Below are positions 47,114 through 52,279 of a stretch of 52,279 nucleotides of DNA, in pieces. This DNA comes from Mesorhizobium sp. RMAD-H1 (GTDB taxonomy: Bacteria > Pseudomonadota > Alphaproteobacteria > Rhizobiales > Rhizobiaceae). The stretch lies in assembly GCF_014191375.1 (NCBI RefSeq), contig NZ_JACHWN010000015.1, positions 1 to 52,279 of the forward strand. Direction: 5' to 3'. Both the position numbers and the translations under genes were made by a program. The notes beneath the pieces were generated by a model that saw nothing but the letters and a program-made list of their open reading frames with translations, ran no database searches and was not told the DNA's origin. The stretch's first letter is position 1; each line of letters begins with the position of its first letter.

Positions 47114-47189
47114 GCCCAGGTAGCTCAGTTGGTAGAGCAGCGGATTGAAAATCCGCGTGTCGGTGGTTCGATTCCGCCCCTGGGCACCA
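47114..47189 (+). tRNA. tRNA-Phe (anticodon GAA)
   Basis: The acceptor GCCCAGG pairs with CCTGGGC, the D arm is TAGCTCAGTTGGTAGAGCA, and the anticodon stem GGATT/AATCC encloses a loop with anticodon GAA. The T arm contains GGTTCGATTCC. CCA is encoded at 47187-47189. Its 3' end is the probable integration site of the island that follows. Confidence 0.97.
47165..47189 (+). other. Candidate attachment site (attL) in the 3' end of tRNA-Phe
   Basis: P4-type integrases usually recombine within the T arm and 3' end of a tRNA gene, and the integrase starts 161 bases downstream in the same direction. The matching direct repeat (attR) would lie outside the window, so the exact core cannot be defined. 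Confidence 0.45.
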
Positions 47190-47302
47190 TTACCCCTTCC
47201 CATAGCTTCTCACGGCGTCTTTCTAATCAAGAAAAATCAATGGGTTAGCTGATTTTCGCTACTCATGACGGGCCACTGCGTACCGTTGCAACGCATGAGT
47301 TT

Positions 47303-47352
47303 ATGGGTAACGATCTGGGCATTACCCAATACCCAGGAGGCCCGTTACCCAT
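47303..47352. repeat. TTACCCA-type repeat cluster at the integrase start
   Basis: ATGGGTAACG (47303-47312) and CGTTACCCAT (47343-47352) are perfect 10-base inverted repeats; the second reaches into the ATG at 47351. TTACCCA (47322-47328) and ATACCCA (47329-47335) lie between them. The cluster may bind the integrase, an excisionase or a repressor, and would control integrase expression. Confidence 0.5.
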
Positions 47353-48535
47353 GCCGCTCTCCGACTTCGCCTGCAAGAACGCCAAACCCAAGGATAAGCC
47401 GTATCGTCTCGCCGACGGCGACGGGCTCTATCTTCTCGTCCAAAAAAGTGGCTCCAAGCTCTGGCAATTACGCTATCGCTACCTCGAGAAGGAAAATATC
47501 CTCTCCTTCGGGAAATACCCGCTGGTGTCGCTTCTCGGCGCGAGAGAAAAGCGCGATGAGGCCAAAAGGCTGCTTATTGCCGGCATTAACCCCTCCACAA
47601 AGCGCAAGGAGGAGAAGATCGCAGCCATCACGGAAGCGCGCACCACCTTTGGTCTGATCGCCGAAGAATATATTGGGCGGATGGAGGAACGGAAGGCGGC
47701 GGCCACCGTCACCAAAACCAAGTGGCTCCTCGAAGACCTGGCCAGTCCGCTCGCCAAGCGTCCCATCAAGGAGATCACTGCGGCGGAAATTCTCCAGCTC
47801 CTCCAGAAGATCGAGAAGAGCGGCCGAAGAGAGACGGCGCGGCGTTTGCGCGGCGTGATCGGGAGTGTTTTTCGGCTGGCGATTGTCACCCTCCGTGCCG
47901 AGACTGACCCGACCCTGATCCTCCGGGGCGCTCTCCAGCCGCCGACAGTCACTGGCCGCGCCGCGATCACTGATGAAAGAAAATTCGGCCAGCTCCTCGT
48001 GGCGATCGATGATTACGACGGCTGGCCGACCATCAAAGCGGCCCTCCAGTTTCTCGCCCTCACCTGTGTCCGCCCCGGGGAAGTACGAGGAGCGACCCGC
48101 GACGAGTTCGACCTAAAGAAGGCCGTCTGGCACATTCCGGCCGAGCGTATGAAGATGCGTGCTCCGCACGATGTGCCGCTATCCAAGCAGGCGCTTCTGG
48201 TCTTGGAAGAGATCTGGCCGCTCTCTGAGTACGGCGGATTGGTCTTTCCTTCGATCCGTTCGACCAAGCGTCCGCTTTCGGAGAACGCTATGAATGTCGC
48301 GCTGCGGCGTATGGGCTACGGCAAGGACGAGGTAACCGCCCACGGCTTTCGGGTAACCGCCAGTTCCATCCTTAACTCCCGCAACTACGATCCAGACGTA
48401 ATTGAGGCGGTCCTGGCGCATCAGGACAAGAACGCCATTCGGCGGACCTACAACCGCGCCACCTATTGGGGACAGCGGGTGTCACTGATGCAGGAATGGG
48501 CAGATTTGCTAGACGCACTAAAGGTGGGCCGCTAA
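47351..48535 (+). CDS. P4-type tyrosine integrase
   Basis: 394 residues. The N-terminal DUF4102 arm-binding domain has LADGDGLYLLVQKSGSKLWQ and RYRYLEKENILSFGKYPLVS. The catalytic domain has Arg241 in LTCVRPGEVR, HGFR at 331-334, His357 in LAHQD and the nucleophile Tyr367 in RRTYNRATYW. It inserts and excises the island by recombination at tRNA-Phe. AGGAGG lies about 9 bases before ATG 47351, between repeat elements. The catalytic residues are intact, so it may be functional. Confidence 0.93.
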   Translation: MPLSDFACKNAKPKDKPYRLADGDGLYLLVQKSGSKLWQLRYRYLEKENILSFGKYPLVSLLGAREKRDEAKRLLIAGINPSTKRKEEKIAAITEARTTFGLIAEEYIGRMEERKAAATVTKTKWLLEDLASPLAKRPIKEITAAEILQLLQKIEKSGRRETARRLRGVIGSVFRLAIVTLRAETDPTLILRGALQPPTVTGRAAITDERKFGQLLVAIDDYDGWPTIKAALQFLALTCVRPGEVRGATRDEFDLKKAVWHIPAERMKMRAPHDVPLSKQALLVLEEIWPLSEYGGLVFPSIRSTKRPLSENAMNVALRRMGYGKDEVTAHGFRVTASSILNSRNYDPDVIEAVLAHQDKNAIRRTYNRATYWGQRVSLMQEWADLLDALKVGR

Positions 48536-48926: not shown

Positions 48927-49916
48927 GTGCGAAACTTTTTCGAATCCATTGTTAGACCGGCCGATAGGGGGTCTACGGATAGTCTCTACGCTCTATTCGC
49001 TGTCGCAGTCGGAGTCACGGCGGTTATCTTTTTGGTGGCGATCGTCATCGCTGCGGTGGGAGTAGATGCCGGACAATTCGGCGACTTCTTCGGAGGTACG
49101 CTAAACCCTTTGCTGACGTTCCTCACCTTTATGGGACTGCTAGTTACGATTGTGCTCCAGCAGGCGGAGCTGCGTGAGACCCGCGCCGAACTCATAAGGT
49201 CGGCTGATGCGTTGGAGAATCAGATTAAAGCCACGGACCGTCAGAATTTTGAGTCGACGTTCTTTCAAATGTTGACCCTGCACAATACTATCGTGAATTC
49301 CATCGACCTCCATTACAGCAGGCGAATGTCGTCCGAAGACGGCGAGATCATCAGGCAATCACGCGAAACCAAAGGGCGTGACTGCTTCAGCCAGTTTTTT
49401 GATAATTTCAAAAAAGATTACGAGAGCACTGTTGCCCCGTCTGAAAAAGAGCGGTTTCAAGGCGCCTATGATAAGTTCTGGAGCTACCGACAACAGGATC
49501 TCGCGCATTATTACCGTTATCTCTACAATGTCTTACGGTTTGTCCACGAGTCAAAAGGCATCGAAGACAAACTGCCGTATGTAAAACTGCTTAGGGCTCA
49601 ACTTTCAGATTTTGAGCTGGTGATGCTGTTCTACACAGCGCTCAACAGGCACGGTATCAACTACTGGATTTATATCCACGAGTATCAGATGTTCGATAAT
49701 TTGCAGGAGAGTATGCTTATCGACCCATCCCATGTCGCGCTCTATTCAGAGCGGTCGTTCGGTATGCCGAAACGTCCACCGCCTGTCGACTGGCCTCCCG
49801 CAATTCTAGCGGTTCAGCATGAGGCCGAGAAAAATGCGGAAGCAGGAGAATTCCTACCAGTTGATCGCCAAAATAACGGAAATCGCGATGGGCATCGTCT
49901 TCCAAGCAATAATTGA
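48927..49916 (+). CDS. Putative phage abortive infection protein (membrane-anchored, putAbiC type)
   Basis: 329 residues from GTG 48927. Two N-terminal membrane helices (about 21-46 and 57-77) are followed by a coiled-coil stretch (QQAELRETRAELIRSADALE) and a cytoplasmic domain. The domain contains FESTFFQMLTLHNTIVNSID, YYRYLYNVLRFVHESKGIED and LSDFELVMLFYTALNRHGIN, the block pattern of the putative phage abortive infection family. Proteins of this family are found in defence islands and are thought to stop growth of infected cells. The last 40 residues are polar and look less conserved. Its location in an integrated island supports a defence role, which remains an inference. Confidence 0.7.
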   Translation: MRNFFESIVRPADRGSTDSLYALFAVAVGVTAVIFLVAIVIAAVGVDAGQFGDFFGGTLNPLLTFLTFMGLLVTIVLQQAELRETRAELIRSADALENQIKATDRQNFESTFFQMLTLHNTIVNSIDLHYSRRMSSEDGEIIRQSRETKGRDCFSQFFDNFKKDYESTVAPSEKERFQGAYDKFWSYRQQDLAHYYRYLYNVLRFVHESKGIEDKLPYVKLLRAQLSDFELVMLFYTALNRHGINYWIYIHEYQMFDNLQESMLIDPSHVALYSERSFGMPKRPPPVDWPPAILAVQHEAEKNAEAGEFLPVDRQNNGNRDGHRLPSNN

Positions 49917-50657
49917 GAAGCATTCCGGGCCCTTCCCGGCAAAGATAGAGCGGTTCATCGCGCCAAGTCGCCAGAGATCAGGGCTTGAGCAATCTTGTAG
50001 CTACTACGCCTTCGCATATAAGCAGGCGCTTGAGAACTTGGCCACGCATTCGTCCAAACCAAGTATATCTCCATACCCTCTTCATGCAGATGGCGCGCCA
50101 CAGTATGAAGGTCATCTTTAAAAATGCGCTTATGAGTGCACATTCTGCGTGCCTGCACCGCTGAAGACCGACGGGCACAATTTGCTCGTGCTCTGCTATC
50201 GACTGGATGCGTCCTCATTAAGCAGGGAATATCTCGAGCCCGATGATTCTTGAACATAATACTCCCGATGTCTCCTTGTCCATATCGTCAAGTATGACTT
50301 CATCTGGTGAGGTCTTCCGCTATTCTCAAAACGTTGGCGGCACTCCCTTCGATCGGCTAGATATTTAATTTTGAGGGATTGATTATTGCCTACCATCATA
50401 TCACGGCTTTGGAGGATACAACTGTGACAATGCTTCAAAAAATCGGTAGTTATCCAGATGAGCGTGCATATACCGGAAATTACTGAAACCTGCGATCTGC
50501 GAGGACAGGAACTGCGGCTTGTTCGGTTCAGCACTGAAGCTCGTCCGCTGTGATGTCCTCATTGTTATGCGCCAAAGCATCAGTATAGCTGGTTGCCGGT
50601 TTAGACGTAACTAATCAGCAGCCTCGAACACCAATACGGCCGACCCTTCGAAACCTC
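49917..50657. other. Degraded stretch without a convincing gene
   Basis: About 740 bases with only short, interrupted frames on both strands. The minus-strand frame 50257-49955 contains a stretch with protein-like character (DDLHTVARHLHEEGMEIYLV) but no recognisable domain or upstream start signals. It may be the remnant of a lost gene. An AT-rich area at 50350-50480 may hold the promoter of the next gene. Confidence 0.35.
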
Positions 50658-52256
50658 ATGAGCGATTTCTGGACCTCAACTTACAGCGATTTGTCGAGCG
50701 AATCTGATGTTGAAATGCGTTTCGTTTTGCCGCTTCTTCGCGAATTGGGTCATGAACTGAGCAATATCCGGTCAAAGCATCCGGTAGAATTTCAAGAAGG
50801 ACGGGTCCGACGGGCTGGCAGGAAGCCAGAAGCGGACTTCGTCGTCTATTCGGAATTGCCCCATACGCGCGAAACGGCATTGATTGTCGTCGAAACAAAG
50901 CGAGAAGCTTGAGGCGGGGAAAGATCAGGCGGAATCCTATGCGCAGAACCTTCGGACACCTCTCTTCATCCTGACCAATGGTGTCGATCTTGAGTTGTGG
51001 CAGCTTCAGATCATCGGAGAATCCGATCTTGTTTTGTGCTGTAGTCTTGAGCAACTTGCCGAGAAGCGGGGGGACATAGAAGCGATTGCATCGCGATCTG
51101 CGTTATTGGCGTTGTCCGCCCAGCTTCGTTTCAAGAATCTGGCGACCCTCGCGCAGGACCTTTCCACTTATGTACGTAGCGAGATCGAGAGGTGCCGGAA
51201 GGACTTATGCGGGCACATATCATTTTCCCTGCAACGTTTCGACACTGATGAAGCATCCACTCTTGCCGATCTGAAGGACGGAGCTATCGTCGCAGCCTCG
51301 TCCGGCTATGGTAAAACCTTGCTTGGTAAGGCGATCATGCTGGACGCGCTTGAGCAGAAACTCGCGGCAAGATCTCTTCCGGTGGAAGTGTTCTTGCCGG
51401 ATCTGGCGGATGAAGGATTGGAGCCTTACCTGCTCAAAAGAGTGGCCGCCCACTCTCCCTCTTTCAGTGCAGCCAGACTTCGGCAAGAAGCTCAGTTGAA
51501 CGGCCTATTTGTTGTCGCTGATGGCTTCGATCGCGTGCCGACCTCGAGGCGTGCGGCGGTGACTTCGCAGCTGCGGAACTTTCTCAGAGACTTTCCAAAG
51601 AGCAGGTTGGTCGTCTTCTCTCGACCTAATTGCTTGCCGGACTTGACTTTGCCGTTGGTGAAGCTCGGGAGCTTTTGCGAGAGTGATGTCATTACACTCA
51701 TCGAAATGGCTTCGCCGCCGACGTTCAGAAACGAGCGCTTAAAGCTTCCCGCCCACTTACAGGAAATATGTCGCATTCCGTTGCTTGGCAGCTTGGTGGC
51801 GGAACATTATCTTCAGCATCACCGATTTCCTACAAAAATCAGCTTGCTTTACAAGGAGTGGCTCAACCGGGTGTTGGAGCCATTCCCAATAGTAGACAAA
51901 GCGATCTTTCGTGATTTTCTCGAGCGTCTGGCCGAAAGAACGGTCAAGCAGCCTCTCGATATTGCCGCATGTCTAGAATTGGCTGAAGGCATCGGCCGCA
52001 GAACCTGGCAAGCCTGATCGACGCCGAGGCCATTAGCGTTCGGGGCACGCAAGTCGAGCTCATTCATGAGGGGTTAGCTGATTTTCTTCGGGCACAACGT
52101 ATTGTTCGATTGCCATCTGACGATCTGCAAAAGGCACTTGATCAAATCACATTTGATCCCTCGTCGCTGCTTCCGGGGCTCCTTTGTTGGTTTCCACGCG
52201 GAACTGAGCCGGTTTTTCCACCGAGAAGTGAGCCACCTCTGAGTATGGTTTTCTGA
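50658..52256 (+). pseudogene. PD-(D/E)XK nuclease fused to NACHT/STAND-like NTPase, broken by two frameshifts and truncated
   Basis: Fragment 1 (50658-50912) is an HsdR-N-like nuclease half with Asp60 in RKPEADFVVY and Glu79-Thr-Lys81 in IVVETK. Fragment 2 (from about 50890 to 52017, another frame) continues that domain with GKDQAESYAQNLRTPLFILT. It then has a Walker A loop AASSGYGKTLL, a NACHT-type Walker B LFVVADGFDRV and the sensor LVVFSRP. Fragment 3 (from about 52002, back in the first frame) has VELIHEGLADFLRAQRI, the usual post-NTPase helical motif, and runs to TGA at 52254-52256, after entering a probable insertion sequence near 52200. The two shifts compensate each other. The architecture suggests an antiphage sensor-effector of the STAND type in which the C-terminal sensor is lost. 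Sequencing error at either shift is possible. Confidence 0.7.
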
Positions 52257-52279
52257 TCAGGGTTTGGTCAATGGGCTGG
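52205..52279. mobile_element. Probable terminus of an insertion sequence (IS21-like?) cutting the NTPase gene
   Basis: The reading frame of the upstream gene loses protein character after about 52200, where TGAGCC occurs twice 24 bases apart (52205-52210 and 52229-52234) within a Lys/Pro-poor, GT-rich leader. Repeated short motifs near the tip are typical of IS21-family ends. The transposase would lie outside the window, so this is a tentative call. Confidence 0.35.

Follow-up and report, generated by a model that had tools for sequence, protein, structure and literature searches.

A probable NLR-like nuclease-NACHT receptor gene, decayed in Mesorhizobium sp. RMAD-H1, and its intact relatives

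Contig C15 of Mesorhizobium sp. RMAD-H1, analyzed here over its whole length of 52,279 nucleotides and referred to as the window, carries at its 3' end the remnant of a nuclease-NACHT gene (50658-52184) that is distributed over three reading-frame pieces (Table 1). We regard it as probable that this is the decayed 5' half of a gene for a single-protein, NLR-like STAND receptor in which an HsdR-N-type PD-(D/E)XK nuclease is joined to a NACHT/winged-helix part. The window copy itself is very probably a decayed, truncated pseudogene. Homologues with intact open reading frames in six organisms would add a rare lineage to the nuclease-NACHT antiphage proteins, and their C-terminal domain is explained by no Pfam or PDB sequence match. 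The window copy, in turn, would illustrate a common fate of such genes, namely acquisition on an island followed by loss via frame breaks and insertion of an IS element.

Table 1. Features at the 3' end of the window
Feature	Position	Strand	Remarks
tRNA-Phe	47114..47189	+	upstream of integrase
Tyrosine integrase of island	47303..48535	+	Pfam
putAbiC, putative phage abortive infection protein	48927..49916	+	Pfam 59 bits, cut-off 22
Piece 1	50658..50912	+	84 aa; N-terminal part of HsdR-N-type PD-(D/E)XK nuclease domain; Pfam, BLASTP, tblastn
Motif codons of piece 1	Asp 50835-50837, Glu 50892-50894, Lys 50898-50900	+	motif scan
Piece 2	50884..52017	+	377 aa; end of nuclease domain and NACHT NTPase; Pfam, BLASTP, tblastn
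NACHT NTPase in piece 2	about 51298-51678; Walker A 51301-51318; Walker B 51511-51534	+	Pfam, motif scan
Piece 3	about 51987..52184	+	winged-helix/helical region, truncated at IS; BLASTP, tblastn
Conserved motif EL.HE.LAD.LR	52056-52091	+	in piece 3
End of IS21-family insertion sequence	52185..52279	.	truncates gene; contig ends inside

A preliminary description of this DNA had listed three PD-(D/E)XK residues, a Walker A motif, an LFVVADGFD region and a helical motif, and all of them were present where it had placed them: piece 1 has D60, E79 and K81, piece 2 contains SGYGKT and VVADGFDR, and piece 3 contains ELIHEGLADFLR. All seven homologues that we found, like the window pieces, retain the Asp and E-x-K of the nuclease, the Walker A (S[GA]xGKT) and Walker B (D[GS]F[DE]R) sequences and the EL.H..LAD.LR motif of the winged-helix region. 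A sensor-like SR motif pattern gave unspecific matches and was discarded. Profile searches with the separate pieces and with intact homologues returned the combination that had been proposed, an HSDR_N-type nuclease plus NACHT. The Pfam NACHT model was matched by piece 2 with 30.6 bits (cut-off 26.7); of the four homologues scanned, two exceeded this value (28.2 and 36.0 bits) and two fell short of it (23.3 and 15.6 bits). The HSDR_N_2 domain is divided in the window, with profile positions 5-59 in piece 1 (15.8 bits, cut-off 25) and 65-97 in piece 2, both fragments being below the cut-off. All four homologues scanned exceeded this cut-off (30.6-42.4 bits), and the nuclease part of a family profile matched the type I R subunit 3h1t in the PDB (E 2.8e-5; the other seven PDB matches had E 0.089 or worse), which bears out an HsdR-N-type nuclease at the N-terminus. 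Piece 3 alone gave no Pfam match.

That the three pieces belong to one gene followed from separate searches, in which they matched the same homologues in colinear order and in frames 3, 1 and 3, in agreement with the order 0, 1 and 0 suggested earlier. All seven homologues were matched by piece 1 (BLASTP E 3.6e-21 to 5.7e-28), by piece 2 (E 1.3e-57 to 1.2e-84) and by piece 3 (E 2.6e-9 to 6.3e-14), and the matches are therefore far beyond chance. When proteins of Bosea, Rhizobium oryzicola and Oryzicola (four query records from three organisms) were compared with the window by tblastn, the frame switches fell at about 50887-50903 and about 51981-52002. The opposite outcome, homologues that consistently form two separate genes, did not occur, given that six of the seven are one uninterrupted gene. 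The exception is R. oryzicola (L023:9983-12897), where two overlapping ORFs make up the homologue. They part in the winged-helix region at a distance of about 20 codons from the second break of the window, which makes this a separate frame break.

Programmed frameshifting was considered because R. oryzicola, too, has its split within the winged-helix region, and it was rejected: the switch lies at about residue 458 in the window versus about residue 478 in R. oryzicola (Bosea numbering), the first break of the window is not shared, and six homologues are encoded in one frame. A further explanation, that the breaks are assembly or base-call errors and that only the truncation by the IS is real, appears rather unlikely to us. 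There are just two breaks, no further stop is found within about 1.5 kb and the catalytic motifs are intact, all of which would fit such errors; moreover, the gene aligns in two pieces in the Phaeobacter inhibens 2.10 record NC_018421.1 and in one piece in the other three Phaeobacter records, so that differences of this kind do occur among records of the family. Against this, the assembly is good (5.14 Mb in 21 contigs, 99.98% complete), the relative in R. oryzicola is split too and at a different point, and the gene is truncated by the IS anyway, so that drift is to be expected. The two-piece alignment of NC_018421.1 itself is perhaps a sequencing difference.

An interruption of the gene by an insertion sequence had likewise been proposed and was confirmed, in that an IS21-family end begins at 52185 and the C-terminal region is lacking. 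The sequence from this position onward recurs at the ends of contigs C10 and C1, hence the contig stops in a repeat. This IS end was found in 167 plasmid records and coincides with an annotated istB/istA element in Rhizobium tropici. The missing C-terminal half was sought in the Mesorhizobium genome with the Oryzicola C-terminal sequence (450 aa) and was not found, in a search that had no positive control in that genome; a similar query of 429 aa recovered the Phaeobacter C-terminal half in plasmids with 46% identity by tblastn.

The homologues are proteins of 944-1003 aa, encoded by a single ORF in all organisms except R. oryzicola. Five loci, in Oryzicola mucosus, Ancylobacter radicis, Brucella rhizosphaerae, Bosea sp. 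and R. oryzicola, were recovered from 107 pattern matches in a contig profile scan for which three aligned homologues served as query. The same kind of scan with the window piece alone gave 161 pattern matches, none of which was confirmed as a relative. Plasmid homologues were present in P. inhibens (four records) and Agrobacterium fabrum (two records), and in one Deinococcus plasmid record the nuclease part was matched and nothing else. The window piece also weakly matched two Nostoc NACHT proteins, and no relatives were seen in viral contigs and phage records. In genomes drawn at increasing taxonomic distance, the only genus-level match among six genomes was the source genome itself. At the family level seven of 394 genomes matched at E 0.001 or less, four of them weakly and in part and three strongly, namely the source genome, G374 and G033; identical proteins led us to equate G033 and G374 with Oryzicola and R. 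oryzicola. The class-level draw again gave the source genome alone (one of 385 at E 1e-10), and at the phylum level (two of 398 at E 1e-6) it was joined by one match to the N-terminal part. The Phaeobacter and Agrobacterium hosts are Alphaproteobacteria according to their records, and we take the Oryzicola, Ancylobacter, Brucella, Bosea and R. oryzicola hosts to be Alphaproteobacteria as well. As judged by these pattern-based scans, which would miss distant relatives, the lineage appears to be rare and found only in Alphaproteobacteria.

The assignment of the central domain to the NACHT/STAND NTPases was further upheld by structure prediction. When the Oryzicola protein (952 aa) was modelled with AlphaFold from eight alignment rows, the quality was moderate, with a pLDDT of 70.9 and a pTM of 0.58. 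Foldseek against the PDB returned NOD2 first (E 8.9e-6), followed by NLRC4, NLRP9, NLRP3 and Avs4 (8dgf_B, E 3.4e-4), with a weaker match to Avs3 (8dgc_B, E 0.014). In the 21 matches with E of 0.001 or less the TM-scores by query were low, 0.17-0.32, and the rmsd ranged from 6 to 23; therefore, these matches support a NACHT-type core and not the whole chain. About 430 aa follow at the C-terminus of all seven homologues and are absent from the window copy. This region is probably the sensor. A sequence search of the PDB returned nothing for it with E of 1 or less, and the seven C-terminal regions together gave just two unrelated, chance-level Pfam matches, each in one member. Modelled alone, it reached a pLDDT of 43.7, too poor for a fold search.

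Examination of the genes around the homologues, as had been suggested, revealed known defence genes near four of the seven loci (Phaeobacter, B. rhizosphaerae, Ancylobacter and Agrobacterium). On the P. inhibens plasmid (L014 8743-16497) the homologue and a SIR2 gene share four bases, and a pair of HerA-like genes and Drt5 come next, all within a stretch that also has Tn7-type transposition genes. Several defence genes are carried together here as cargo. In B. rhizosphaerae the neighbours are PDC-M01A, PDC-M01B and integrases, and in Agrobacterium they are an LmuB-like gene and a gene annotated as SIR2. In Ancylobacter a DNA methylase gene lies upstream and a partial Dsr1 match two genes downstream. 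An integrase gene adjoins the R. oryzicola homologue, with an Hjc-type protein encoded nearby. Only ordinary chromosomal neighbours were present, among the genes scanned, at the remaining two loci: tRNA-Ser and lytic transglycolase-type, TerC-type and MiaB-type genes in Oryzicola, and UvrA-type and ABC-F-type ATPase genes in Bosea. In view of these UvrA- and ABC-F-type genes, Bosea gives no support for a defence context, and the PADLOC mad3/mad8 matches there were read as generic ATPase matches. Two Bosea ORFs of 1071 and 552 aa were rejected as neighbours, being antisense and without Pfam match, with the UvrA-/ABC-F-type genes on the other strand. Most copies are thus in a mobile or defence setting.

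Two large proteins encoded beside homologues had neither a Pfam nor a PADLOC match. One of them, of 1392 aa, is encoded next to the Ancylobacter radicis homologue (L019:12994-17172), where no other ORF of at least 200 aa competes with it, and is possibly the product of an undescribed defence gene. The other is a 700-aa ORF directly downstream of the B. rhizosphaerae homologue (L020:13120-15222).

No conserved partner gene was detected across the seven loci (ORFs of 100 aa or more) and the window (80 aa or more), and the protein therefore most likely acts alone. Apart from the family gene and the ORFs antisense to it, what did recur were tyrosine integrases, a chromosomal TerC-type gene present in both Oryzicola and R. 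oryzicola, and ABC ATPases of a generic type in B. rhizosphaerae and Bosea. The location of copies on plasmids and beside integrases would also suit a STAND regulator or a toxin-like element that stabilizes mobile DNA instead of an antiphage sensor. We consider this improbable, since the catalytic residues of the nuclease effector are conserved in all seven homologues, no recurring gene is available as a possible antitoxin and defence genes are neighbours at four of the seven loci.

Still less credit is given to an HsdR-like, restriction-type endonuclease in which the ATPase would be a motor and no STAND switch would exist. The homologues share the HsdR-N nuclease domain with the type I restriction R subunits, their N-terminal domain being HSDR_N_2 with a match to a type I R subunit, and the methylase upstream of the Ancylobacter copy is in keeping with restriction; the NCBIfam EcoAI-type R model, however, was matched over about the first 116 of its 768 positions, with up to 38.6 bits versus a cut-off of 550. 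A NACHT ATPase takes the place of the helicase motor of HsdR, with matches to NACHT/nSTAND1 and NLRs as the best fold matches of the model, whereas a DEAD-helicase match was seen in one homologue with just 13.6 bits. Nor do HsdM/HsdS partners recur, and the methylase is not a recurring neighbour among the seven loci and the window.

In the preferred reading, that of an NLR-like receptor, the C-terminal domain of the intact relatives would bind a product of a phage or another invader, upon which the NACHT domain would exchange nucleotide and oligomerize, and the clustered nuclease domains would cut DNA so that the infected cell is stopped. Because both the anatomy of the proteins and their neighbours point that way, we infer an antiphage function for the intact relatives.

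The features of bacterial NACHT proteins in the broad sense were found here: a central NACHT-type NTPase flanked by an N-terminal effector and a C-terminal region. According to the accessible part of PMC12169576, bacterial NACHT proteins consist of an N-terminal effector, a central NACHT and a C-terminal sensor, and the PD-(D/E)XK DNases of bNACHT25 and bNACHT32 are required for protection and degrade DNA on activation. These two clade 6 proteins, as described there, have the same single-protein tripartite layout with an N-terminal PD-(D/E)XK DNase, a central NACHT and a C-terminal sensing region (PMC12169576). They carry an NCH1 C-terminal helical domain; in a comparison made by description, the C-terminal regions of the homologues gave no such match when searched against Pfam, and their nuclease is of the HSDR_N_2 type. 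The earlier suggestion of a little-described family thus holds for the lineage and the C-terminal domain and not for the nuclease-NACHT kind as such, which has already been tested with bNACHT25 and bNACHT32 (PMC12169576). The layout itself is known from bNACHT25.

Nuclease effector, STAND NTPase and C-terminal sensor are likewise common to Avs1-Avs4 (AVAST), whose nuclease effectors act on recognition of phage terminase, portal or another phage protein, as stated in the available portion of PMC12931631. The homologues differ in size, with about 950 aa, while the chains of Avs4 and Avs3 have 1534-2004 aa. The PDB sequence search gave no Avs chain with E of 1 or less, and the listed PADLOC hits included no Avs model, in searches that were without an Avs positive control. 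DS-8, a metallophosphatase-NACHT according to the accessible part of PMC13092281, also unites an effector and NACHT in one defence protein, with a different effector; one homologue matched the NCBIfam DS8 model with 9.7 bits (cut-off 790). PADLOC gave weak partial matches alone on the homologues (R-M nuclease domain up to 23.4 bits, mad8, PDC-S73, PDC-S60 and GajB) and no match on the window pieces, and NCBIfam gave part of the type I R model and chance-level matches and nothing more on the homologues. No PADLOC or NCBIfam defence model covers the lineage.

A literature search that paired the HsdR N-terminal domain with NACHT found nothing, with thin coverage of subscription journals, and the combination of HsdR-N nuclease and NACHT was absent from the accessible portions of PMC13092281, PMC12931631, PMC12169576, PMC7159879, PMC10952713 and PMC13236601. 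The last of these, in its available part, describes an NLR-like system of another kind that controls gene transfer agents in Caulobacter (PMC13236601). As a tentative possibility, the lineage might be a nuclease-NLR branch of its own, centred on Alphaproteobacteria, with the C-terminal domain as a new sensor that reads a protein specific to alphaproteobacterial phages or gene transfer agents.

In the window, the nuclease-NACHT gene copy lies 3' of the tRNA-Phe, tyrosine integrase and putAbiC genes on an island with a G+C content of 53% versus 62% for positions 1-47000. The tRNA-Phe is the likely integration site of the island; a second attachment site for the island was not found. A 16-nt exact direct repeat (47242-47257 and 52071-52086) was rejected as attachment site and is probably due to chance: one copy is 3' of tRNA-Phe and not within it, and the other falls in the NACHT gene, within the conserved winged-helix motif. 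The stretch between putAbiC and the nuclease-NACHT gene (49917-50657) is without a recognised gene or plasmid DNA match and possibly consists of mobile-element remnants. The putAbiC-type protein (48927-49916) has relatives of less than 60% identity on 12 plasmid records and is a candidate defence gene of the island. DNA of the contig is similar to Sinorhizobium and Rhizobium plasmids.
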